The notes below the pieces were generated by a model. It did not search any database, was not told the origin of the DNA, and was given only the letters and a program-made list of their open reading frames with translations. The position numbers and the translations under genes were made by a program. A DNA stretch of 64,000 bases, from positions 186,001 through 250,000 of the forward strand of contig JAQSWY010000001.1 in assembly GCA_029266425.1 (NCBI GenBank), given 5' to 3'. This DNA comes from Xanthobacteraceae bacterium. GTDB lineage: Bacteria; Pseudomonadota; Alphaproteobacteria; Rhizobiales; Xanthobacteraceae. Shown one piece after another: positions 4,770 through 14,361 of the stretch. The first letter of the stretch is position 1. Each line of letters opens with the position of its first letter.

Positions 4770-5162
4770 ATGCGCTTCATGTTCATCGTCCTGTCCTCCC
4801 AGATGACCCCGCCGACGCCGGAGCTGATGGAGGCCATCGGCAAGCTCAGCGAGCAGGAGATCAAGGCCGGCCGCCTCATCGACACCGGCGGTCTGGTGCC
4901 GCTTCCCATGGGCGGCGCGCAGGTTCAGCTCAAGGGCGGGCAGATCAGGACGATCGACGGTCCCTATGTCGAGGCCAAGGAGATGATCGGCGGCTTTGCC
5001 ATCTTCGAGCTGAAGAACATGGAGGAGGCGATCGCCTCGGCGCAGAACTTCATGCAGCTCCACAAGGAGCTGATGCCGGGCTGGGACGGCACCTGCGAGA
5101 TCCGCCTCATGGCCGAGAATTGTGCGGACACCCATGAAGCGCAGCGCTCCGCTGTCGCCTGA
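4770..5162 (+). CDS. YCII/DGPF-domain protein linked to ECF42 sigma factor
   Basis: Small cytosolic YCII-like protein of 130 residues. It contains the hallmark TIDGPYVEAKE segment (DGPF-like) and alternating strands and helices of a ferredoxin-like fold. Genes of this type are almost always next to ECF42 sigma factors, and the exact biochemical role is unknown. The ATG at 4770 is preceded by GAGGAAA. The 3' end overlaps the sigma factor gene by about 30-40 bases, implying translational coupling. Confidence 0.88.
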   Translation: MRFMFIVLSSQMTPPTPELMEAIGKLSEQEIKAGRLIDTGGLVPLPMGGAQVQLKGGQIRTIDGPYVEAKEMIGGFAIFELKNMEEAIASAQNFMQLHKELMPGWDGTCEIRLMAENCADTHEAQRSAVA

Positions 5163-6495
5163 GACGGGGCACGCATCGTCGGCGGCGCACCCACCCGCCG
5201 CCGACGCTCCAGCGGGTGCACATCGCGCCAGCACCGATGCCGCCATACTCGCCGTGTGGCGGATCGAGCAGCCGCGCCTCATCACTTCTTTGGCGCGGAT
5301 GCTGCGCGACGTGCCGCTGGCCGAGGACCTGACGCAGGAAGCCCTGATCGTCGCCCTGGAGCGCTGGCCGCATAGCGGCGTGCCGGAGCGGCCGGGCGCC
5401 TGGCTGTTCGCGGTCGCCCGGCGCCGCGCGCTCGATCATCTGCGCCGCAACCGCATGCTGGCGTTGAAGCATGGCGAAGTGGCGCGCGAGCTGGAGGACG
5501 AGCAGCAGTCCATGCCCGATTTCGACACTCCGCTGGATGACGATATCGGCGACGAGCTGCTGCGGCTCATCTTCACCGCCTGCCACCCGCTGCTCTCGCG
5601 CGAGGCTAAAGCCGCGCTGGCGCTGCGCATGATCTGCGGCCTGACGACGGAGGAGATCGCCCGCGCCTTCCTGGTGCCGGAGGCGACCATCTCCCAGCGC
5701 ATCGTGCGCGCCAAGCGCACGCTCGCGGAGTCCGGCCTGTCCTACGAGACGCCGCGCGGCGCGGAAGTAGCGGTGCGGCTCAGCTCGGTGCTGGAGGTGC
5801 TCTATCTCATCTTCAACGAGGGCTACACCGCGGCGAAGGGCGACGACTGGATGCGCCCGCAGCTTTGCCACGAGGCGCTGCGGCTCGGCCGGGTGTTGAC
5901 CAATATCGCCCCGAACGAGCCCGAGGCGCACGGCCTGCTGGCGCTGATGGAGCTGAACGCCTCGCGCGCCCGCGCCCGCATCGATGCCGATGGCGAGCCG
6001 ATCCTGCTGATGGATCAGGACCGCCGGCTGTGGGACCAGCTGCAGATAAGGCGCGGCCTCGCCGCCCTGGCGCGGGCGAAAGCGCTCGGCGGGGCAGAGG
6101 GCTGCTACGCCCTGCAGGCCGCCATCGTCTCCTGCCATGCCCGCGCGGCAAGCGCAGAGGAGACCGACTGGCCGCGCATCGCCGGGCTTTATGCCGAGCT
6201 GGCGGCGGTGGCGCCGTCGCCAATCGTCGAGCTCAATCGCGCGGTGGCGGTGGGCATGGCCGAAGGACCGGCGGCGGGACTTGCAATCATCGACCGGCTG
6301 ATGAACGAGCCGGCCTTGGCGCGCTACCATCTGCTGCCGGGCGTGCGCGGCGACCTGCTGTTCCGGCTCGCCCGCTTTGAGGAAGCCCGCGCCGCCTTCG
6401 AGGCCGCCGCCGCGCTGGCCGCCAACGCCCGCGAGCGCGAGCTGATGAGGCGGAGGGCAGCGGAGGCGGGGCAGGCGGCGCGGCCGTCCCGCTGA
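5122..6495 (+). CDS. ECF42-type RNA polymerase sigma factor with C-terminal helical domain
   Basis: Sigma-70 family protein of up to 457 residues. It has region 2 (LTQEALIVALERWP through AWLFAVARRRALDHLRR), region 4 (GLTTEEIARAFLVPEATISQRIVRAKR) and a long C-terminal extension (from about residue 220) of helical TPR-like repeats. In ECF42 proteins this extension replaces an anti-sigma factor as the control element. No anti-sigma gene is present here. The start is either GTG 5122 or ATG 5134, both inside the YCII gene. The stimulus cannot be read from the sequence. Confidence 0.9.
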   Translation: MRTPMKRSAPLSPETGHASSAAHPPAADAPAGAHRASTDAAILAVWRIEQPRLITSLARMLRDVPLAEDLTQEALIVALERWPHSGVPERPGAWLFAVARRRALDHLRRNRMLALKHGEVARELEDEQQSMPDFDTPLDDDIGDELLRLIFTACHPLLSREAKAALALRMICGLTTEEIARAFLVPEATISQRIVRAKRTLAESGLSYETPRGAEVAVRLSSVLEVLYLIFNEGYTAAKGDDWMRPQLCHEALRLGRVLTNIAPNEPEAHGLLALMELNASRARARIDADGEPILLMDQDRRLWDQLQIRRGLAALARAKALGGAEGCYALQAAIVSCHARAASAEETDWPRIAGLYAELAAVAPSPIVELNRAVAVGMAEGPAAGLAIIDRLMNEPALARYHLLPGVRGDLLFRLARFEEARAAFEAAAALAANARERELMRRRAAEAGQAARPSR

Positions 6496-6533
6496 ACCCT
6501 CCATGCGTCGGTATCGTGAGTCCCTCATCTGCC

Positions 6534-6634
6534 GTCATCCCGGACGGCCGGAACGGCCGATCCGGGATCGAAGGAAGGTGTAATGCGGGACTTCGCGCGA
6601 TCCCGGCTCTGCTCCGGCCGGGAAGACGCCTTGT
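6534..6634. repeat. Intergenic palindrome, family I (divergent copy)
   Basis: Starts GTCATCCCGGACGGCC, with the inverted partner GGCCGATCCGGGATCG and a second weaker stem CGGGACTTCGCGCGATCCCG. It lies between the convergent sigma factor and GST genes, where it could also terminate transcription from both sides. This layout resembles elements seen in Bradyrhizobium-like genomes. Confidence 0.6.
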
Positions 6635-6645
6635 GGGGATGAAGG

Positions 6646-7350
6646 TCACTCGCGAAACCGCTCCAGCACCTCCTTCAGCGGCACATGCCCGCGGAACGCT
6701 CCATTGCCCGGAGGCGTCTCGCCATCCTCGATCGCCTGCGCGAACCGCACCGCATCCTCCGCCTCGATCCGCCGGCGCAGCGCGGCGAGCCTGGGATAGG
6801 CATCGACATCCACCGCCCGGTGAAACTCGGCCCAGCGGGCGACGCCGATCAGCGTGGTATCGGCGAGCGTCAGCCGGTCGCCCGCAAGAAAGGCGCTCTC
6901 CCCGATCATCGCCTCCAGCTTTGCATGGCGATCCGCCACCGCCGCTCGGCCATAGGTGCGCAGCACGTCGAGCGTTGAGGGCTCGGCATCCTCCATCTCG
7001 AAGGCGGCCCAGAGCGGGGAGAAGGCCGCGGTGAAGCCGGTGTTCACGAAGCCGATCATCTGGTGCATCCGGTCGGCTTCCGTCGTGCCCGGCACGAAGC
7101 TGATGCGGCGTGCGGCATCGCGCGCCTCCAGCCACAGCGCGATCGCCATGGTCTCGGTCAGCACCCGTCCGTCATCGGTGATCAGCACCGGGGTCTCCTG
7201 CCGGCCATTGAGGCGGGCATAGGCCTCGTTCTTCATCTCGCTCAGCATGTCGACGCGGGCGAGGCGGTAGGGCTGGCCGAGGCGCTCGAACGCCGCGACG
7301 AGCCCCATCGAGCTTCCCGACGGGAAGCCGTACAACAGGATAGGTTCCAT
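6646..7350 (-). CDS. Glutathione S-transferase family protein
   Basis: A 234-residue two-domain GST. The thioredoxin-like N-terminal half holds the active-site Ser region (YGFPSGSSMG, residues 8-17), the glutathione-binding Q-E-T-P-V segment and a TETMAI motif. The C-terminal half is all-helical and carries the conserved LTLADTTL motif. Probably a cytosolic detoxification or isomerase-type GST. It is divergently transcribed from an HxlR regulator 113 bases away, the usual arrangement when such a regulator controls its neighbour. Confidence 0.88.
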   Translation of the reverse strand: MEPILLYGFPSGSSMGLVAAFERLGQPYRLARVDMLSEMKNEAYARLNGRQETPVLITDDGRVLTETMAIALWLEARDAARRISFVPGTTEADRMHQMIGFVNTGFTAAFSPLWAAFEMEDAEPSTLDVLRTYGRAAVADRHAKLEAMIGESAFLAGDRLTLADTTLIGVARWAEFHRAVDVDAYPRLAALRRRIEAEDAVRFAQAIEDGETPPGNGAFRGHVPLKEVLERFRE

Positions 7351-7416
7351 GGTCTCTCTGCCTGATGAGGGGGATCGCTGCGCAGCGAGACTGGACTCTA
7401 GGGATTGGTGGTCCCA

Positions 7417-7440
7417 TGTAAATTACGCACTAATCTGTAA
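7417..7440. promoter_or_regulatory. Candidate HxlR operator in GST/HxlR divergent region
   Basis: The AT-rich patch between the divergent genes contains two TGTAA copies at 7417 and 7436, 19 bases apart, a spacing close to two helical turns. This is the only notable repeat in the intergenic region. Binding by the adjacent HxlR protein is inferred from position only. Confidence 0.3.
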
Positions 7441-7463
7441 CCAGAACGAATGCGGCTAACTCC

Positions 7464-7808
7464 ATGAAAGATCTCGTTTCCCGCTGTCCGATCGAAGAGG
7501 CCATGCAGGTGCTGAGCGGGCGCTGGCCGAGCCTTCTGCTCTATTATCTGAAGGACGGCACCAAGCGCTTCAGCGACTTGCGACGCGACAATCCCACAGT
7601 CTCGCACCGCATGCTGGCGTTGGAATTGAGGAAGCTGGAGGAGGCCGGCATCGTGCGGCGCACCGCGCATTCCGGCTACCCGCTGCGGGTCGACTACGAT
7701 TTGATGCCCGCGGGACGAAAGCTTGTGCCGCTGATCGACGCGTTGGGCGACTGGTGGGAAGAGACGGAGAGCGAGCGCGGCGCACCAGGGATGCGCCCGG
7801 CGGCGTAA
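7464..7808 (+). CDS. HxlR-family winged-helix transcriptional regulator
   Basis: A 114-residue DNA-binding protein with the classic HxlR layout: CPIEEAMQVLSGRWPSLLLYYL, then GTKRFSDLRRDNPTVSHRMLALELRKLEEAGIV (winged helix), then a C-terminal dimerisation helix. Cys8 sits at the position of the redox- or electrophile-sensing Cys of many HxlR proteins. It likely controls the divergent GST gene in response to oxidants or electrophiles; the ligand is not known. Confidence 0.88.
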   Translation: MKDLVSRCPIEEAMQVLSGRWPSLLLYYLKDGTKRFSDLRRDNPTVSHRMLALELRKLEEAGIVRRTAHSGYPLRVDYDLMPAGRKLVPLIDALGDWWEETESERGAPGMRPAA

Positions 7809-7853
7809 GCCCCTCATTGGACCACCTCATCCTGAGGTGGTTCGGAGGACTCC

Positions 7854-7934
7854 GTCATGGCCGGGCTTGTCCCGGCCATCCACGGTTGATCTCTCGTCAT
7901 GGACGTGGATCCCCGGGACAAGCCCGGGGATGAC
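7854..7934. repeat. Intergenic bipartite palindrome, family I, copy a
   Basis: Two linked stems: GTCATGGCCGGGCTTGTCCC... and CCCCGGGACAAGCCCGGGG...ATGAC, joined by a short linker. Outer ends are GTCAT and ATGAC. A family II half-element (CATCCTGAGGTGG) sits directly before it at about 7827-7840. Copy d at 29340 shares its linker type. Confidence 0.8.
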
Positions 7935-7970
7935 GGGTCGTTTGGTGAATCGTCAGCAAGCCTCTCAGGC

Positions 7971-8144
7971 TCAGAACCAGCCGGGGAAGGAATCCTCCCA
8001 GCCACGAACCTTCTGTCCGGCCTCGGTCGGCGCCAGCTGGGCGAGCGCGGCCTTCGTCGTGGCAAGCTCGCGCGGATCGGTGTCCCAGGCGCAGGGCGAG
8101 AGCAGCACGGCAAAGCCGACCAGGCATTTGATGGCGAACTGCAT
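7971..8144 (-). CDS. Small exported or membrane protein of unknown function
   Basis: A predicted 57-residue protein with a hydrophobic N-terminus (FAIKCLVGFAVLLS) and a short polar tail ending in GWF. The ATG at 8144 has an ideal GGGAG ribosome site 6 bases upstream, which is the main reason to believe it. It follows ohr on the same strand by about 50 bases and may be co-transcribed. I do not recognise the family. Confidence 0.5.
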   Translation of the reverse strand: MQFAIKCLVGFAVLLSPCAWDTDPRELATTKAALAQLAPTEAGQKVRGWEDSFPGWF

Positions 8145-8195
8145 GGATATCTCCCGATTGCGCCCGCCCATCGCGATGGGCGGGCCGGTGCCGGT

Positions 8196-8615
8196 TCAGA
8201 CGAGATTGATGACGACGTCGATATTGCCGCGGGTCGCCTTGGAGTAAGGGCAGGTCTGGTGGGCGGCGTTCACGATTTCTTCGGCGACATCGCGCTCGAG
8301 GCCGGGCAGGCTGACATTGAGCCGCGCCTGCAGGAAATAGGCGCCGTCCGTGGTGCCGAGATCGACCTCGGCATCGACCGCATGGCCGGCCGGCAGCGCG
8401 ATCTTGCGCTGGGCGGCGGCGATGCCCATCGCGCCGATGAAGCAGGCCGACCAGCCGGCGGCGAAGAGCTGCTCCGGATTGGTGCCGGCCCCGGAGGAAC
8501 CGGGCGACGACAGCTTGATGTCGAGGCGGCTGTCCGAGCTGCGCGAGGTGCCGTCGCGCCCGCCGGTGGTGTAGGTCTTGCCGGTATAGAGCACCTTCTC
8601 GATCCTGGTGGTCAT
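8196..8615 (-). CDS. ohr: Ohr/OsmC organic hydroperoxide resistance protein
   Basis: A 139-residue OsmC-fold peroxidase. The two reactive cysteines are in WSACFIGA and TCPYSKAT, spaced as in Ohr, and the sequence begins with the typical KVLYTGKTYTTGGRDG. Ohr reduces organic hydroperoxides using lipoylated partners. The ATG at 8615 is preceded by AAGGA. Its upstream region carries a direct repeat (8719-8734) like those flanking the dipZ/response-regulator promoters, so it may respond to that two-component system rather than to a MarR-type OhrR, for which no gene is present here. Confidence 0.9.
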   Translation of the reverse strand: MTTRIEKVLYTGKTYTTGGRDGTSRSSDSRLDIKLSSPGSSGAGTNPEQLFAAGWSACFIGAMGIAAAQRKIALPAGHAVDAEVDLGTTDGAYFLQARLNVSLPGLERDVAEEIVNAAHQTCPYSKATRGNIDVVINLV

Positions 8616-8718
8616 GGGAGTGTCCTTGTGCGGGATGTGAGCGCCGTCTGGCCGCTCAGCGAATGCCCGCATAAGGCGCCCCCGCCGTATCCGGCATGTG
8701 TTCGGACGGATGCCGAAG

Positions 8719-8734
8719 TGTAAGCGCGTGTAGG
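8719..8734 (+). promoter_or_regulatory. TGTA-N6-TGTA direct repeat upstream of ohr
   Basis: TGTAAGCGCGTGTAGG, two TGTA half-sites one helical turn apart, the format bound by OmpR/PhoB-family regulators. It lies about 104 bases upstream of the ohr start. Near-identical repeats occur at 10753-10768 and, inverted, at 10782-10797 beside the response-regulator gene. Confidence 0.5.
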
Positions 8735-8788
8735 TCGGGAGAGGGCGGATACAGAGCGGTACAAGGGCCGGAACCGACCTCTCGATTC

Positions 8789-8871
8789 GTCATCCCCGGG
8801 CCTGTCCCGGGGATCTCGGCCTCTGATGCGCCATCCGGAATCGAGATCCCCGGCACAGGGCCGGGGATGAC
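8789..8871. repeat. Intergenic bipartite palindrome, family I, copy b
   Basis: Stem one is CATCCCCGGGCCTGTCCCGG, stem two CCCCGGCACAGGGCCGGGG, with outer ends GTCAT and ATGAC. The linker carries CTCGGCCTCTGATGCGC. Copy c (13032-13114) matches it at all but a few positions, linker included. The element separates dipZ (3' end) from ohr. Confidence 0.82.
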
Positions 8872-8902
8872 GTCGCATCAACGGCTTCGGGTCTCTCCCA
8901 TC

Positions 8903-10657
8903 TCACCCGAACGTAAACGCGAACGCCTCCACGCCCGGTGCGAGGAAGCGCACCTCGAAGGTGCGCTCCTCTACGTTCCCGGCCTGCCGCACCAGTTGGT
9001 AGAGCCGGGTCTCCTTCACCGTGCCGCGACCCTCGGCGTCGATATCGGCGCCGTGGTCGGCGCCCGGTGGCTGGCCGTCGATCCGCACCTCGAACGGCAC
9101 CTCGCGTCCGCTCGCACCGGGCCCCAGCACGAGATGCAGGTCGCGGGCGCGGAAGCGATAGGTGATGCTGCCACCCGGCTGGTTGAGGCTCGCCTGCTGG
9201 CCCCCCACCGTCCAGTTGCCGGCGAGCGACCACTGGTTCAGCCGAGGTGCGCCCGCCGTGTAGTCCCGAGCGCCCGCCTTCATCCCCTCGGGCGAGGCGA
9301 AGCGCCTGGCTTGCTCATAGCCCAGATACGTCTCGGGCGAGCCGAGAGCGCCGAGATCGGCGGGCGCCTCGGCGCCGGTGGCGGCGGGCGCCACCACCTC
9401 GTCCTCGGCCTTGCGGCTGCCGGCATCCTTCAGGAGGTCCTGGATCACCTTTTCCGAGCGGTCATAATTGCCCTCGCCGAACTGGTGATGGCGGATCTTG
9501 CCCTCGGCATCGATGAAATAGAGCGCAGGCCAGTAATTATTGCCGAAGGCGCGCCAGATCTTGTAGTCGTTGTCGGTGACGACTGGGAAGTCGATCTTCA
9601 GCGTGCCGAGCGCGGTCTTCACATTGTCGAGCTTCTTCTCGAAGGCGAATTCCGGCGTGTGCACGCCGATCACCACCAAACCTTGGTCCTTGTACTTATC
9701 CGTCCAGGCCCGGATATAGGGGAGGGTACGGATGCAGTTGATGCAGGAATAGGTCCAGAAATCGATCAGCACCACCTTGCCGCGGAGCTGTTCCGTGGTG
9801 AGCGGCGCCGAGTTCAGCCAAGTGCCCGCGCTCTGAAGCGAGGGGAACGTGCCTTCCACCGGCAGGCGGCTGCGATAGGGCGCGTCAGCCGCCGCAAGCA
9901 CGGTGCCATTGCTGGTCGTGACGCCTGGCGCCGCTTCAGCTTCGCTATGGGCGAACTCGAGCAATGCCTGCTCGATGCGGCCGGTCGTGGGCCCGGAGAG
10001 CCGCGCCAGCAGCCCGGTATCGAGGCCGAGCCCGATCGCCGCCACCGCAACGAGGACGGCGACACCGAGCCCGCGGCGCAGCCATTCGCCCGCGCCGAGC
10101 GCGCGCTTCATGGCGGCGAATACCTGGCCGCCGATGACCAGCGCCAGCGCCAGCGAGGTCGCCGCGCCCGCCGCATAGGCGAGGAGCAGCGCGGTGCTGC
10201 CGGCATTGGCGCCCTGCAGCGCAGCACTGGCCAGCACCAGGCCGAGGATCGGCCCGGCGCAGGGCGCCCAGAGCAGGCCGGTGGCGACGCCGAGCACCAG
10301 CGAGCCACCGACGCGCGGCTCCGTGCCCGCCGCCTGCGACAGCCGGTTGCCGAGCGCGACGATGGGCCGGGTGAAGCGCGCGGCCATAGTGGGCGAGAGC
10401 AGCGTCACCCCGAACACCGCGAGCAGCACGAGGGCGAGGCTGCGGCCGATCTCGTTGGCCTCGACCGCCCAGCCGCCGCCGACCGCGGCCAGCGTCGCGA
10501 CGCCGGCGAAGGTGAGCGCCATGCCCGCGAGCATCGGCAGCGTGCTCTTGAGGAAGGGTTGTCCGGCCCGGGCGAAGACGAAGGGAAGGACCGGCAATAT
10601 GCACGGGCTGAGTATCGTCAGCACGCCGCCCATATAGGCAATGACCAGGAGAGCCAT
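8903..10657 (-). CDS. dipZ: DipZ: CcdA-like membrane domain fused to thioredoxin and sugar-binding-like domain
   Basis: A 584-residue inner-membrane protein. Residues 1-240 form a DsbD/CcdA-type multi-helix domain with the Cys-Pro motifs LSPCILP and WAPCAGP. Next is a periplasmic TlpA-like thioredoxin domain with WTYSCINCIRT (about 300), and finally a beta-rich C-terminal domain of the DipZ type. It moves reducing power from cytosolic thioredoxin to periplasmic partners. The ATG at 10657 with AAGGAAA is preferred over an upstream extension. It is divergent from the response regulator, with a shared operator-like palindrome between them. Confidence 0.9.
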   Translation of the reverse strand: MALLVIAYMGGVLTILSPCILPVLPFVFARAGQPFLKSTLPMLAGMALTFAGVATLAAVGGGWAVEANEIGRSLALVLLAVFGVTLLSPTMAARFTRPIVALGNRLSQAAGTEPRVGGSLVLGVATGLLWAPCAGPILGLVLASAALQGANAGSTALLLAYAAGAATSLALALVIGGQVFAAMKRALGAGEWLRRGLGVAVLVAVAAIGLGLDTGLLARLSGPTTGRIEQALLEFAHSEAEAAPGVTTSNGTVLAAADAPYRSRLPVEGTFPSLQSAGTWLNSAPLTTEQLRGKVVLIDFWTYSCINCIRTLPYIRAWTDKYKDQGLVVIGVHTPEFAFEKKLDNVKTALGTLKIDFPVVTDNDYKIWRAFGNNYWPALYFIDAEGKIRHHQFGEGNYDRSEKVIQDLLKDAGSRKAEDEVVAPAATGAEAPADLGALGSPETYLGYEQARRFASPEGMKAGARDYTAGAPRLNQWSLAGNWTVGGQQASLNQPGGSITYRFRARDLHLVLGPGASGREVPFEVRIDGQPPGADHGADIDAEGRGTVKETRLYQLVRQAGNVEERTFEVRFLAPGVEAFAFTFG

Positions 10658-10752
10658 CGTGGTTTCCTTGTGCAGAGGATGCAAGATGGGCGGCATCTGG
10701 CCGCTGCCGCTTGTCCCGCATGTGTTCGCGGAAGCAGCGCTTTGGGCATTTT

Positions 10753-10768
10753 TGTAAGCCAGTGTATC
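10753..10768 (+). promoter_or_regulatory. TGTA-N6-TGTA direct repeat near dipZ
   Basis: TGTAAGCCAGTGTATC lies in the dipZ/response-regulator divergent region. It has the same half-sites and spacing as the repeat upstream of ohr. Together with the inverted copy at 10782-10797 it forms a dyad with outer TGTA...TACA and inner AGTGTA...TACACT. Confidence 0.55.
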
Positions 10769-10781
10769 CGGCCAATTCACG

Positions 10782-10797
10782 CCTACACTGACGTACA
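10782..10797 (-). promoter_or_regulatory. TGTA-N6-TGTA direct repeat facing the response-regulator gene
   Basis: On the minus strand this reads TGTACGTCAGTGTAGG, the third copy of the motif. It lies about 82 bases upstream of the response-regulator start and fits self-regulation plus control of dipZ. Confidence 0.55.
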
Positions 10798-10878
10798 ACT
10801 CTTCGGCAGCGAGCCTGCCAGCTTCGCCGCGAATGCTGCTAGAGATTTGCGGCGCGCATGAAGTGAAGGCACCGCACG

Positions 10879-11619
10879 ATGGACCACATCGACCATATCC
10901 TCGTCGTCGACGACGACCGCGAGATCCGCGAACTCGTCTCCTCCTACCTGAAGAAGAACGGCCTGCGCGTCGACGTGGCGCCGGACGGAAGGCACATGCG
11001 GGCCTTCCTCGAGGCCAATACGGTCGATCTCATCGTGCTCGATCTGATGATGCCGGGCGATGACGGCCTGGTGCTGTGCCGGGAACTTCGCGCCGGCAAG
11101 CACAAGGCGACGCCGGTGATCATGCTCACTGCCCGCGGCGACGAGACCGACCGCATCGTCGGGCTGGAGATGGGCGCGGACGATTACCTCGCCAAGCCGT
11201 TCGCGGCGCGCGAACTGCTGGCCCGCATCAAGTCGGTGCTGCGCCGCGCCCGCATGCTGCCGCCGAATTTGCGCGTCACCGAGGCCGGGCAGATCCTCGC
11301 CTTCGGCGACTGGAAGCTCGATACCGTGGGCCGCAACCTGCTTGACAGGCAGGGCACCGCCATCGCGCTGAGCGGCGCCGAGTATCGCCTGCTGCGCGTC
11401 TTCGTCGACCATCCCCAGCGCGTGCTCAGCCGCGACCAGCTGCTGAACCTGACGCAGGGCCGCGAGGCGGAACTGTTCGACCGCTCAATCGACCTCTTGG
11501 TCAGCCGGCTTCGCCAGCGCCTCAATGAGGATGCCCGCGAGCCGGCCTATATCAAGACCGTGCGCAGCGAAGGCTATGTCTTCTCCATGCCGGTCGAAAT
11601 CGCCGAGCCGCGCACGTGA
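10879..11619 (+). CDS. OmpR-family response regulator
   Basis: A 246-residue two-domain regulator. The receiver has the acidic pocket VVDDD, phospho-acceptor Asp55 (LIVLDLMMPG) and the switch residues LTAR and KPF. A C-terminal winged-helix DNA-binding domain (ALSGAEYRLLRVF ... VSRLRQRL ... TVRSEGYVF) follows. Its 3' end overlaps the kinase start by four bases (GTGA). It lies divergent to dipZ and probably binds the TGTA-N6-TGTA repeats found at its own promoter, at dipZ and at ohr; this is inferred from motif format and position. Confidence 0.92.
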   Translation: MDHIDHILVVDDDREIRELVSSYLKKNGLRVDVAPDGRHMRAFLEANTVDLIVLDLMMPGDDGLVLCRELRAGKHKATPVIMLTARGDETDRIVGLEMGADDYLAKPFAARELLARIKSVLRRARMLPPNLRVTEAGQILAFGDWKLDTVGRNLLDRQGTAIALSGAEYRLLRVFVDHPQRVLSRDQLLNLTQGREAELFDRSIDLLVSRLRQRLNEDAREPAYIKTVRSEGYVFSMPVEIAEPRT

Positions 11620-12932
11620 GCACGACCCTCGCGCTCCGTAACATGCATTTATGGCCGCGCTCGCTCGCGGCGCGGCTGTTCGTCATCCTGCTCGCCGGCG
11701 TCATGATCGCCCATGCCATGTCGTTCGGGGTGATCTTCCTCGAACGCTACATGACCGCCAGGCAGGTGATGCTCGGCACACTGGAGAATGATGTCGCAAC
11801 CTCCGTCGCCATCCTCGACAGGCTGCCGGCGGACGAGCGGGCGGCCTGGCTGCCGCAGCTCGACCGCGGCACCTATGCCTTCGAGCTCGGCCCGGGCCTG
11901 CCGGGCGTGCCGGAGCTCACCGGGCGCGGCGCGGATATCGCCATGCGGATACGCGATGCGATCGGCGCCCGCTTCCCGGTCACGGTCGAATCGATCCCCG
12001 GCGAGCGCATGCGGCTCCAGGCCCATCTCACCTTGCATGATGGCAGCCCGCTGACCGTCGACGTCAATCCCGCGCCGATGCCGCTCGCCGAATGGCTGCC
12101 CTATGCGCTGATCGCGCAATTGCTGCTGCTCGTCGGGTGCTGCTGGCTCGCGGTGCGCCAGGCGATCCGCCCGCTGGCGGACCTCGCCCAGGCTGCCGAT
12201 GCGCTCGATCCCAACCGCACGACACCGCGCCTCAGCGAGAGCGGACCGAGCGAGGTCGCCCACGCGGCGAGCGCCTTCAACGCCATGCGCGAGCGCATCG
12301 CGCACTATCTGGAGGAGCGGGTGCGCATCCTCGCCGCCATCTCCCACGACCTGCAGACTCCGATCACCCGCATGAAGCTGCGCGCCGAGATGGCGGAGGA
12401 ATCGGTGGAGAAGGACAAGCTCATGCAGGACCTCGGCGAGATCGAGCGGCTGGTGAAGGAGGGCGTCGCCTATGCCCGCAGCGCCCATGGCGACACCGAG
12501 GCCGCCACGCGCATCGATATCGGCTCCTTCGTCGAGAGCCTCGCTTATGATTACCAGGACACCGGCAAGGAGGTGACGGTAACGGGCGCCGCCGGCGGCG
12601 CGGTCGTCGTCCGTCCCCATGCCCTGCGCCGCATCCTCACCAATCTCGTCGACAATGCGCTGAAATTCGGCGGCGCGGCGGAGCTGAGCGTCGCCCGCGA
12701 GGGGGAGGGGGTGGTGATCCGGGTGCTCGACCGCGGCCCCGGCATTCCGGAAGACCAGCTGGACGCGGTGATGCAGCCCTTCTTCCGCCTGGAAGTGAGC
12801 CGCAGCCGCGACACCGGCGGCACGGGGCTGGGTCTCGCCATCGCCCAGCAACTGGCGCTCGTGATCGGCGGATCGCTGACCCTGCGCAACCGCGAGGGCG
12901 GCGGGCTGGTGGCCGAGGTGCGGATCGGGTGA
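11616..12932 (+). CDS. Sensor histidine kinase
   Basis: A 438-residue membrane kinase. It has a first transmembrane helix near residues 18-38, a periplasmic sensor of about 120 residues, a second helix near 163-182 and a HAMP region. The HisKA motif is ISHDLQTPITR (His about 244), and the ATPase boxes are NLVDNALKF, DRGPGIPEDQ and GGTGLGLAIAQ. It begins with GTG overlapping the regulator stop. The sensed signal is unknown; the linked dipZ and ohr point to envelope thiol or peroxide stress. Confidence 0.9.
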   Translation: MSTTLALRNMHLWPRSLAARLFVILLAGVMIAHAMSFGVIFLERYMTARQVMLGTLENDVATSVAILDRLPADERAAWLPQLDRGTYAFELGPGLPGVPELTGRGADIAMRIRDAIGARFPVTVESIPGERMRLQAHLTLHDGSPLTVDVNPAPMPLAEWLPYALIAQLLLLVGCCWLAVRQAIRPLADLAQAADALDPNRTTPRLSESGPSEVAHAASAFNAMRERIAHYLEERVRILAAISHDLQTPITRMKLRAEMAEESVEKDKLMQDLGEIERLVKEGVAYARSAHGDTEAATRIDIGSFVESLAYDYQDTGKEVTVTGAAGGAVVVRPHALRRILTNLVDNALKFGGAAELSVAREGEGVVIRVLDRGPGIPEDQLDAVMQPFFRLEVSRSRDTGGTGLGLAIAQQLALVIGGSLTLRNREGGGLVAEVRIG

Positions 12933-12954
12933 GGGGCGGTCATCGGGGGACGGG

Positions 12955-12991
12955 CATCCTTCTGGGCCGCTGAGCGGCACTTCAGGATGAC
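12955..12991. repeat. Intergenic palindrome, family II
   Basis: Arms CATCCTTCTGGGCCGCT and AGCGGCACTTCAGGATG with a two-base loop and a few mismatches. It lies just after the histidine kinase stop and could also serve as a terminator hairpin. Confidence 0.7.
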
Positions 12992-13031
12992 GTCCAATTC
13001 GGCGTCGCCGGTGAAGCAGGTCGTTTCCACC

Positions 13032-13114
13032 GTCATGGCCGGCCGTGTGCCGGCCATCTCGGCCTCTGATGCGCTGTCAGGAATCGAGATCCCCGGCACA
13101 AGGCCGGGGATGAC
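13032..13114. repeat. Intergenic bipartite palindrome, family I, copy c
   Basis: Stem one is GGCCGGCCGTGTGCCGGCC; stem two is CCCCGGCACAAGGCCGGGG. Outer ends are GTCAT and ATGAC. The linker CTCGGCCTCTGATGCGC is shared with copy b at 8789, showing recent common origin of whole elements rather than chance hairpins. Confidence 0.82.
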
Positions 13115-13326
13115 GGGCATGGTTGGAATTGCGGATCAGCCTCTCGGGCGCCGATGTCGTACAAAGCCTTAGGTCGACCTTGGTTAACGGAACCTTCTGT
13201 AAATCATGATCATACTGCGTTCTCGCGCGGGGCTGCGCGGGCTCATCCTTGCCCGATTCTCGGGCGATGAAGGATGGCTGCATCGTCGCCCTGCCGACAT
13301 TCGGACGCGCCTGTTGCGAGTTGCTC

Positions 13327-14361
13327 ATGAGTATCCGTGCCAGAATCTCGGCCCTTCGCCTCGTCGTCCTGTTCGGCCTTTCGCTGCTAGCCGCGGGCTG
13401 CGCCGGCGTTGCGGTCGATGATCGCGGCTCGCAGCCCATCCCGGCCAAGCTGGTCAAGGAAATGGCCGCGCGCGGCATGACGCCGGCCGATCCGATCATG
13501 ATCCGCATCTACAAGAAGGAAAGCGAGCTGGAGGTCTGGAAGCGCAACAGCTCAGGCCGCTATGCCCTGCTCAAGACCTATCCGCTGTGCCGCTGGTCCG
13601 GCAGGCTCGGGCCGAAGATGAGGGAGGGCGACCGGCAGGCGCCCGAGGGCTTCTACACCGTGACGCCGGAGCTGATGAATCCGCGCTCGCAATTCTATCT
13701 CGCCTTCAATCTCGGCTACCCCAACAATCTGGAACGTGCCCTCGGCTACCAGGGTAGCGCGCTGATGGTGCATGGTGCCTGCACCTCGTCCGGCTGCTAT
13801 GCGATGACCGATGACGGCATCGCCGAGGTCTATGCGGTGGCGCGCGAGGCGCTGGCGGTGGGGCAGCCCGGCTTCCAGGTGCAGGCGCTGCCGTTCCGCA
13901 TGACGCCGCGCAATTTCGCTTTGCATCGCAATGACCCGAACATGCCGTTCTGGCGCAATCTCAAGCAGGGCACCGACGTTTTCGCGGTGACGAAGCAGCC
14001 GCCCAACGTGTCGGCCTGCGGCGGGCGCTATCGCTTCACCTCGGCGGCAGAGCCGGCCATGCCGGGAGAGGACCCGCTGGCGCCGTGCTTCCAGGAGATG
14101 CCCGATCCCGAGGTCGCCTCGCTCGTGGCGCAGCGCGAGGCGCAGGACGAGCAGACTATCGGCCAGCTCTCGCAATCGAGCCCGGCCGTCTCCCCTGCCT
14201 ATGTGGATGGCGGCATGCATCCGGTCTATCGCGAGATACTGCGCCGCTCCGGCCCGGCCAAGCTCGCAACGCTCACATCCGGCGCCGGCAAGGTGCCGGT
14301 GAGCCGTCCCGATGCGGCGCTGGCCGACCCGTACTCGCAAGGCGATACCGACGGCGAGTGA
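13327..14361 (+). CDS. YafK-like L,D-transpeptidase-fold lipoprotein
   Basis: A 344-residue protein with a lipoprotein signal ending LSLLAAGC, so probably membrane-anchored. The catalytic YkuD-type motif HGACTSSGCYAMTD carries His, Ser and the nucleophilic Cys in the YafK/DpaA order. This subfamily remodels peptidoglycan; E. coli YafK/DpaA cuts the peptidoglycan-lipoprotein bond. A C-terminal Pro/Ser-rich tail follows. The start at ATG 13327 places the lipobox at a normal distance; longer upstream starts would bury the signal. Confidence 0.83.
   Translation: MSIRARISALRLVVLFGLSLLAAGCAGVAVDDRGSQPIPAKLVKEMAARGMTPADPIMIRIYKKESELEVWKRNSSGRYALLKTYPLCRWSGRLGPKMREGDRQAPEGFYTVTPELMNPRSQFYLAFNLGYPNNLERALGYQGSALMVHGACTSSGCYAMTDDGIAEVYAVAREALAVGQPGFQVQALPFRMTPRNFALHRNDPNMPFWRNLKQGTDVFAVTKQPPNVSACGGRYRFTSAAEPAMPGEDPLAPCFQEMPDPEVASLVAQREAQDEQTIGQLSQSSPAVSPAYVDGGMHPVYREILRRSGPAKLATLTSGAGKVPVSRPDAALADPYSQGDTDGE

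Follow-up and report, generated by a model that had tools for sequence, protein, structure and literature searches.

A composite operator beside ohr and dipZ points to control by the adjacent OmpR-type two-component system in a Xanthobacteraceae bacterium

The regulator usually named for ohr is OhrR, as stated in excerpts of PMC13367049 and PMC7464077. A 64,000-nucleotide stretch of DNA from a Xanthobacteraceae bacterium (contig JAQSWY010000001.1, positions 186,001 to 250,000; the whole stretch is called the window) raises the question of what controls this gene when a two-component system lies close by. In the window, dipZ and ohr follow each other on the minus strand, ohr with an intergenic region of its own, and the genes of a response regulator and a histidine kinase diverge from dipZ. 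No adjacent MarR-family ohrR was found among the eight genes scanned in 5122-14361 (ohr, dipZ, regulator and kinase included), where the only other regulators are of the HxlR type and an extracytoplasmic function (ECF) sigma factor. The sequence comparisons reported here make it very likely that one composite operator of the adjacent OmpR-type regulator serves ohr, dipZ and a putative epoxide hydrolase gene on another contig. The genes of the locus are:

8196..8615, minus strand: ohr, Ohr family peroxiredoxin (OsmC fold), 139 amino acids (TIGR03561, 162.5 bits; cut-off 88.85)
8903..10657, minus strand: dipZ, DsbD-like membrane domain, redoxin and Thioredoxin_10 C-terminal domain, 584 amino acids (Pfam)
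10879..11619, plus strand: response regulator of the OmpR/PhoB family, 246 amino acids (Response_reg and Trans_reg_C)
11616..12932, plus strand: histidine kinase, 438 amino acids (HAMP, HisKA and HATPase_c)

The Pfam domains identify the last two genes as an OmpR/PhoB-family regulator with its partner kinase. In DipZ, the sole Thioredoxin_10 match of the genome, Redoxin and Thioredoxin_10 score above their cut-offs and DsbD_TM below (21.3 bits; cut-off 27.1). The solved chain nearest to Ohr is 4mh4 (1.2e-67).

The motif TGTA-N6-TGTA occurs four times in the window, at 8719-8732 (+), 8750-8763 (-), 10753-10766 (+) and 10784-10797 (-), compared with a mean of 0.05 copies after shuffling of the window; none of 100 shuffles reached four. 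An earlier sequence-only reading had placed three copies, upstream of ohr, dipZ and the regulator gene. All three are where it put them, and a fourth had been missed. With this fourth half-site the same dyad, with the same 17-bp (base pair) centre, is present in both regions and not only in the divergent one: the ohr and dipZ regions each hold a 45-bp palindrome, TGTA-N6-TGTA-N17-TACA-N6-TACA, at 8719-8763 and 10753-10797. Exactly two copies of the full palindrome exist in the genome, both in the window, and a reversed-pattern control gave none. The proposed genome-wide search for the half-site led nowhere: it gave seven copies, and the reversed pattern used as control gave 29. The half-site by itself thus shows no enrichment and is useless as a genome-wide predictor. 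Besides the four in the window, a fifth half-site (C156:37467-37480) is part of a third operator on the contig of the hydrolase gene.

On the target-gene side, each palindrome of the window is followed by a third repeat, GACACAT-N4-GATAC, and then by a -10-like element. The spacing between palindrome and third repeat is 16 bp at ohr and 26 bp at dipZ, one helical turn more. The leader blocks that the sequence-only reading saw in common between ohr and dipZ are present; one of them, GCATGTGTTCG, overlaps the third repeat kept in relatives, and another, CCTTGTGC, includes what by eye is the likely ribosome-binding site. The predicted dyad between dipZ and the regulator gene exists as well, with third repeat and -10-like element on the dipZ side only. 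Two profiles of the operator were used, R1 from 47 sites, none of them from the window, and R2 from 25 sites, exclusively beta- and gammaproteobacterial. The operator elements are:

8750..8763, minus strand: distal box pair TGTA-N6-TGTA of the ohr operator (pattern search)
8719..8732, plus strand: proximal inverted box pair of the ohr operator, reading TACA-N6-TACA towards ohr (pattern search)
8687..8702, minus strand: third repeat of the ohr operator, AACACATGCCGGATAC, lying where the -35 region is expected (profile alignment; 56-site consensus)
8671..8676, minus strand: -10-like element of ohr, CCTTAT, model positions 88-93, as placed by profile alignment (A and T conserved at 92-93)
8668..8763, minus strand: whole ohr operator/promoter (R1, 50.6 bits, genome E 7.4e-13; R2, E 1.2e-7)
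10784..10797, minus strand: distal box pair of the dipZ operator (pattern search)
10753..10766, plus strand: proximal inverted box pair of the dipZ operator (pattern search)
10711..10726, minus strand: third repeat of the dipZ operator, AACACATGCGGGACAA, at a distance of 26 rather than 16 bp from the palindrome (aligned to R1 with an insert of 10 bases, E 0.034)
10695..10700, minus strand: -10-like element of dipZ, CCAGAT, as placed by profile alignment

When the genome was searched with R1, the second strong match after the ohr site lay on another contig, at C156:37386-37480 (E 4.9e-10; R2, E 8.7e-7), before an open reading frame (ORF) for an alpha/beta hydrolase:

L092:419-1468, contig C156, minus strand: alpha/beta hydrolase, predicted third regulon member (profile match upstream)

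The dipZ site was matched in parts (E 0.034 and 0.059), and one partial match elsewhere had an E value of 0.47. The hydrolase is 62-71% identical to those of related loci described below and carries, by eye, a twin-arginine-like signal; among solved chains it comes nearest to 5bov (E 6.5e-132), a putative epoxide hydrolase. In Rhizobium relatives the same type of alpha/beta hydrolase gene bears the site. This third target, the fourth motif copy and the third repeat go beyond the sequence-only reading. As a separate observation, an operator in Caballeronia (L041) stands before a gene whose product belongs to the epoxide-hydrolase N-terminal family EHN. The genome has three Ohr-family genes. A second one is found in the stretch L186:1492-3292 (minus strand, contig C219), where it follows another hydrolase gene whose product bears a signal and by eye is epoxide-hydrolase-like, and adjoins a short-chain dehydrogenase gene; R1 found no match on that contig.

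In the orientation of the target gene, the operator consensus is TGTATC-N4-TGTATC-N13-GATACA-N6-TNCA-N15/16-GACACAT-N4-GATAC-N10-(-10). The boxes are spaced by about whole helical turns, two pairs facing each other and a third pair nearest the promoter, which in relatives stands at 15-16 bp from the palindrome on the target side. In a consensus of 56 sites, the ohr site of the window included, a -10-like element follows ten bases past the third repeat (A 70%, T 88%). As the sites were chosen by their boxes, these -10 letters are the only unselected ones in the consensus. The conserved spacing and the unselected A and T kept in the 56 sites, with the -10 position taken from the alignment, would be compatible with a PhoB-type class II layout. 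At the pho box, direct repeats bound by PhoB replace the -35 element, and the -10 element lies about ten bases downstream. PhoB differs in that it is 39% identical to the regulator of the window, and the direct repeat described here is preceded, at a distance that hardly varies, by an additional palindrome formed by two facing pairs. Could the repeated leader instead be a duplicated promoter segment or a leader or RNA element, with no protein bound to it? The several blocks that the ohr and dipZ leaders of this one genome have in common would fit such an origin. Across classes, however, boxes and -10-like element are kept and most spacer positions vary; the boxes keep to about whole helical turns, and the dipZ insert measures 10 bp. 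We regard this explanation as most improbable.

Lack of conservation of the motif before ohr and dipZ of relatives had been named beforehand as a result that would overturn the proposed regulon; the motif is conserved in many of them. The 80 loci compared were the best matches to the regulator query among those listed, ranging from the 87% of a Rhizobium homologue down to 52% identity, and come from Rhizobium, Ensifer, Mesorhizobium, Microvirga, Pseudomonas, Paraburkholderia, Variovorax, Massilia, Lelliottia, Lysobacter and others. Alphaproteobacterial loci typically contain dipZ, an alpha/beta hydrolase gene (four of these hydrolases were confirmed by Pfam), regulator, kinase and ohr, and the palindrome recurs beside these genes. 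R1 gave 120 matches at E ≤ 0.001, distributed over 59 loci; 88 of them reach model position 72 or beyond. The full operator was found before 17 of 20 hydrolase genes (plus one with the palindrome only), 11 of 17 ohr genes, 11 of 13 genes for full-length and two of eight for short DipZ, and before only eight of 1090 other ORFs of at least 200 amino acids (palindrome only, three). Loci with a regulator at least 69% identical to that of the window had it in 35 of 44 cases, those at 50-68% in 17 of 36. Because R1 was trained on part of these sites and the sites had first been picked by pattern, the 80-locus counts and the box conservation in the 56 sites are not independent; they describe and do not test.

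R2 is independent when applied to alphaproteobacterial loci, and gave 33 matches on 13 of them; to judge by position, these include the hydrolase gene in 13 of 13 loci, full-length DipZ genes in 10 of 11 and ohr in 7 of 12. A strict fixed pattern detected 51 operators in 34 of the 80 loci, and none with each of 200 permuted patterns; it undercounts relative to the profile (ohr, 6/17; genes for N-terminal DipZ, 7/20; hydrolase, 14/20). For the palindrome alone the real count of 62 was equalled by one of 200 symmetric permutations, presumably the same pattern restored. The regulator gene itself had the full operator in none of the 80 loci (palindrome only, 16) and the kinase gene in none of 53 (palindrome only, one). 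Membership of the two-component genes in the regulon, and autoregulation through the full operator, are thus not supported.

Does the site belong to the neighbouring regulator? Co-occurrence was determined in 199 genomes of the order. The regulator was present at E ≤ 1e-90 in six, and the same six, which may overlap with the training species of R1, were the only ones with sites better than 1e-6 (0 of the 193 others). At E ≤ 0.001, R1 matched in 16 of the 199 genomes (filters lose some weak matches), the six best being those with the regulator. The small regulon proposed by the sequence-only reading is therefore supported as regards ohr and dipZ under the adjacent OmpR-family regulator, on the strength of conservation and of six in six against none in 193, and is not supported as regards the regulator gene. 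It is quite improbable that another regulator owns the site, be it the HxlR-type protein encoded at 7464-7808 or an unlinked one of OhrR or OxyR type, and that the two-component genes are neighbours by chance. A candidate owner is encoded by the HxlR-family gene, whose end is separated by 388 bp from the 3' end of ohr; this protein bears some likeness to the redox-responsive RrpA/RrpB, with scores far under the cut-offs for these. The excerpts cited above, moreover, give OhrR as the regulator of ohr. Against it, the site tracks the two-component regulator in the 199 genomes, is also found in alpha-, beta- and gammaproteobacterial loci that were fetched by the regulator alone, and has head-to-tail boxes one turn apart, the format of the OmpR family. 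Control of ohr and dipZ by the two-component system is thus strongly supported by these comparisons.

The distribution suggests that the system has moved between genomes. In the sample, both regulator and site are missing from one genome of the same genus and from five of the same family, which is in keeping with horizontal gain, and one relative, a Microvirga (L020), carries the system on a plasmid. As site and mobile regulator occur together in distantly related bacteria, the site is very probably the switch of this regulator. When the first 20 kb of the window were compared at the DNA level with two relatives (40 candidates scored each), the part from ohr to the end of the kinase gene gave only short matches, of at most about 480 bases; the gene next to the kinase matched at 77%, and small intergenic repeats were shared. 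The last two results lean against the stretch being a foreign contaminant.

Several points weigh against assigning the operator to this regulator and all three targets to the operator. As a whole, the dipZ site scores weakly (E 0.034 with R1, 0.125 with R2), because of its ten extra bases and because its third repeat, with three mismatches, has GACAA in place of GATAC. Six of 17 ohr, two of 13 full-length dipZ and six of eight short dipZ genes in the related loci are without the full operator, and nine of the 44 loci with a regulator of at least 69% identity show no operator within the stretch examined. The training sites of R1 came from many of the same 80 loci and had first been picked by pattern. 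The 199 genomes represent one order only, which limits the breadth of the co-occurrence. Ten genomes without a close regulator carry weak sites (1.0e-5 to 9.9e-4); 11 of 13 retrieved loci of weak sites contain a more distant regulator, two of these only in part, so the palindrome is not unique to this regulator subclade. Finally, the hydrolase site lies on another contig of an assembly (5.67 Mb, 222 contigs, estimated completeness 91.65%) with an estimated contamination of 7.51%.

Is the system then one that is already known? RstA, an OmpR-family regulator, is similar in its binding site. In Escherichia coli and Klebsiella its box is a direct repeat TACA-N6-TACA (TGTA-N6-TGTA on the other strand), as here; the E. 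coli box is TACATNTNGTTACA according to excerpts of PMC4117788, and the E. coli asr promoter shows a box of this form, TACATATCGTTACA. By alignment, the two recognition-helix arginines with which RstA is reported there to contact the box appear to be kept in the regulator of the window. RstA differs in its targets and in sequence (36% identity to the E. coli protein), and those excerpts name no operator of two facing pairs plus a third pair. The window's regulator scores 177.5 bits with the RstA equivalog model NF007977 (cut-off 330), 259.5 bits with the OmpR equivalog model NF007005 (cut-off 331; 46% identity to E. coli OmpR) and 147.1 bits with TIGR01387 for the heavy-metal regulators CztR, SilR and CopR (cut-off 279.2). 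HprR and CusR, 33% and 37% identical, fall in a separate clade, with a warning of long branches. In a tree of 44 regulators, the protein of the window belongs to a 16-row clade (support 100/99) without RstA, OmpR, HprR and DsbR. This clade includes proteins from Rhizobium, Ensifer, Microvirga, Pseudomonas, Burkholderia, Lysobacter, Lelliottia, Massilia and Variovorax; the E. coli rows are long-branched.

E. coli HprSR, which senses reactive chlorine and acts on msrPQ, is likewise a two-component system for envelope oxidative repair (excerpt of PMC13367049), differing in targets and clade. OhrR-ohr shares the target enzyme; there a MarR-family thiol repressor acts, whereas here the regulator would be a phosphorylated winged helix-turn-helix protein.

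A resemblance in function exists with DsbRS, a two-component system with divergent gene order that controls envelope thiol genes of the DsbD type: its copper-responsive control of dsbDEG is described in excerpts of PMC10141476 and PMC13101516, which do not mention ohr as a target. Eleven strong dsbG loci of Pseudomonas were available, of which ten were examined. A divergent regulator near dsbG was found in nine of the ten (one had no match), 34-36% identical to that of the window; three of these regulators were placed in the tree. They are presumed to be DsbR from the gene order that PMC13101516 describes. The palindrome, allowing up to four mismatches, was absent from the ten dsbG loci, and the same ten genomes also hold a regulator 79-83% identical to that of the window. 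With this identity, a separate clade and no palindrome at dsbG, orthology with DsbRS was rejected. That the locus more broadly encodes the known copper-responsive DsbRS, or an orthologue of RstAB, OmpR or HprSR with a few extra targets, we consider very improbable. The control of dsbDEG by DsbRS together with DipZ being a DsbD/redoxin fusion speak for it, as does the form of the RstA box; the low identities, the OmpR and RstA scores under the equivalog cut-offs, the second regulator of the ten Pseudomonas genomes and, subject to the long branches of the E. coli rows, the clade that contains none of these systems speak against it.

Potential targets in pseudomonads were searched for in 12 Pseudomonas genomes, all chosen for holding the regulator. 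Operator matches occurred in all 12, two to 13 in each, some being one palindrome read on both strands. Among the genes concerned (30 loci, L130-L159) are those for DUF2790 proteins, the hydrolase, EF-hand proteins in which EGKCG motifs are repeated, DUF2282 proteins and MbnB/TglH/ChrH enzymes; one DUF2282 gene is followed by DoxX. Ten proteins were scanned for these assignments. The EF-hand EGKCG, DUF2282 and MbnB/TglH/ChrH targets resemble copper-binding bufferin clusters. To judge from these predicted targets, the regulon of pseudomonads may be one of copper or thiol stress.

Conserved residues of the kinase offer a possible route for the signal. Cys175 is invariant and Met52 nearly invariant in 30 aligned sequences, the kinase of the window and 29 of 32 listed relatives (L043, L050 and L052 were left out). 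In a predicted model that served only to place Cys175 (mean pLDDT 77.6, pTM 0.40), this residue lies within helix 161-195, presumed to be the second transmembrane helix. Both residues are candidates for redox sensing. The sensor HprS reportedly has a transmembrane cysteine, too.

Other features of the neighbourhood touch the regulon less directly. The following small gene lies downstream of ohr and is possibly on its transcript; in the loci examined it had no relatives except copies of the same place:

7971..8144, minus strand: 57-amino-acid ORF with a signal-like N-terminus (by sequence)

Short inverted-repeat intergenic elements were seen by eye at 7850-7940, 8784-8870 and 13030-13115, one of them between dipZ and the ohr operator; the first has many matches in a related genome and resembles repetitive extragenic palindromic (REP) elements. 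Between a divergent glutathione-transferase gene and the HxlR-type regulator gene, 7398-7463 contains TGTAA/TTACG elements, by eye perhaps an HxlR operator. The ECF sigma factor (5122-6495, plus strand) has a DUF6596 C-terminal extension, and no anti-sigma gene was found among the downstream genes scanned.

For the OmpR-type regulator acting through the composite operator, the following mechanism may be envisaged. The kinase would sense envelope stress via its periplasmic or second transmembrane segment and lead to phosphorylation of the regulator, whose dimers would bind cooperatively to all three box pairs. The pair next to the promoter would stand in for the -35 element, as with PhoB at the pho box, and RNA polymerase would be recruited. 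Transcription of ohr, dipZ and, on the other contig, the gene of the exported-looking putative epoxide hydrolase would follow. Ohr would reduce organic hydroperoxides, the hydrolase open epoxides and DipZ feed reducing power to periplasmic thiols, so that, as a set, the three would repair oxidised lipids and envelope thiols.

The stimulus would be an oxidant, electrophile or copper stress; peroxide or envelope-thiol stress, as the sequence-only reading had it, is plausible. An oxidant appears likeliest, with copper as the alternative, because of Cys175 of the kinase, the precedent of OhrR and the induction of Ohr by hypochlorite, 30-fold in biofilms of Pseudomonas fluorescens (excerpt of PMC7464077). 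In our judgement the system is an OmpR-type regulon of a new variety that has spread horizontally; among the matches listed, the open-access literature contained nothing that joins a two-component system to ohr and dipZ, which is weak evidence of novelty. A wider reading is offered tentatively, as somewhat less than an even bet: that of a hitherto undescribed, horizontally spread proteobacterial two-component system which senses oxidative or electrophilic damage in the envelope, perhaps through Cys175, and switches on a portable repair set by a six-box operator, two facing dimers backing a third at -35. The set would consist of Ohr, epoxide hydrolase and DsbD-type thiol supply and, in pseudomonads, of DUF2790 and bufferin-like genes.

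Regulation of Ohr by OhrR, a thiol-switch repressor, is a textbook case. If a phosphorelay were in control, an extracytoplasmic signal could drive the defence against organic peroxides. The site is specific enough for regulon searches in other genomes. Through it, Ohr and DipZ are connected with a putative epoxide hydrolase that is as yet uncharacterised, and genes of the DUF2790 and DUF2282/MbnB types in pseudomonads are joined to the same switch; since these genes would share a switch, a shared stimulus is directly testable.

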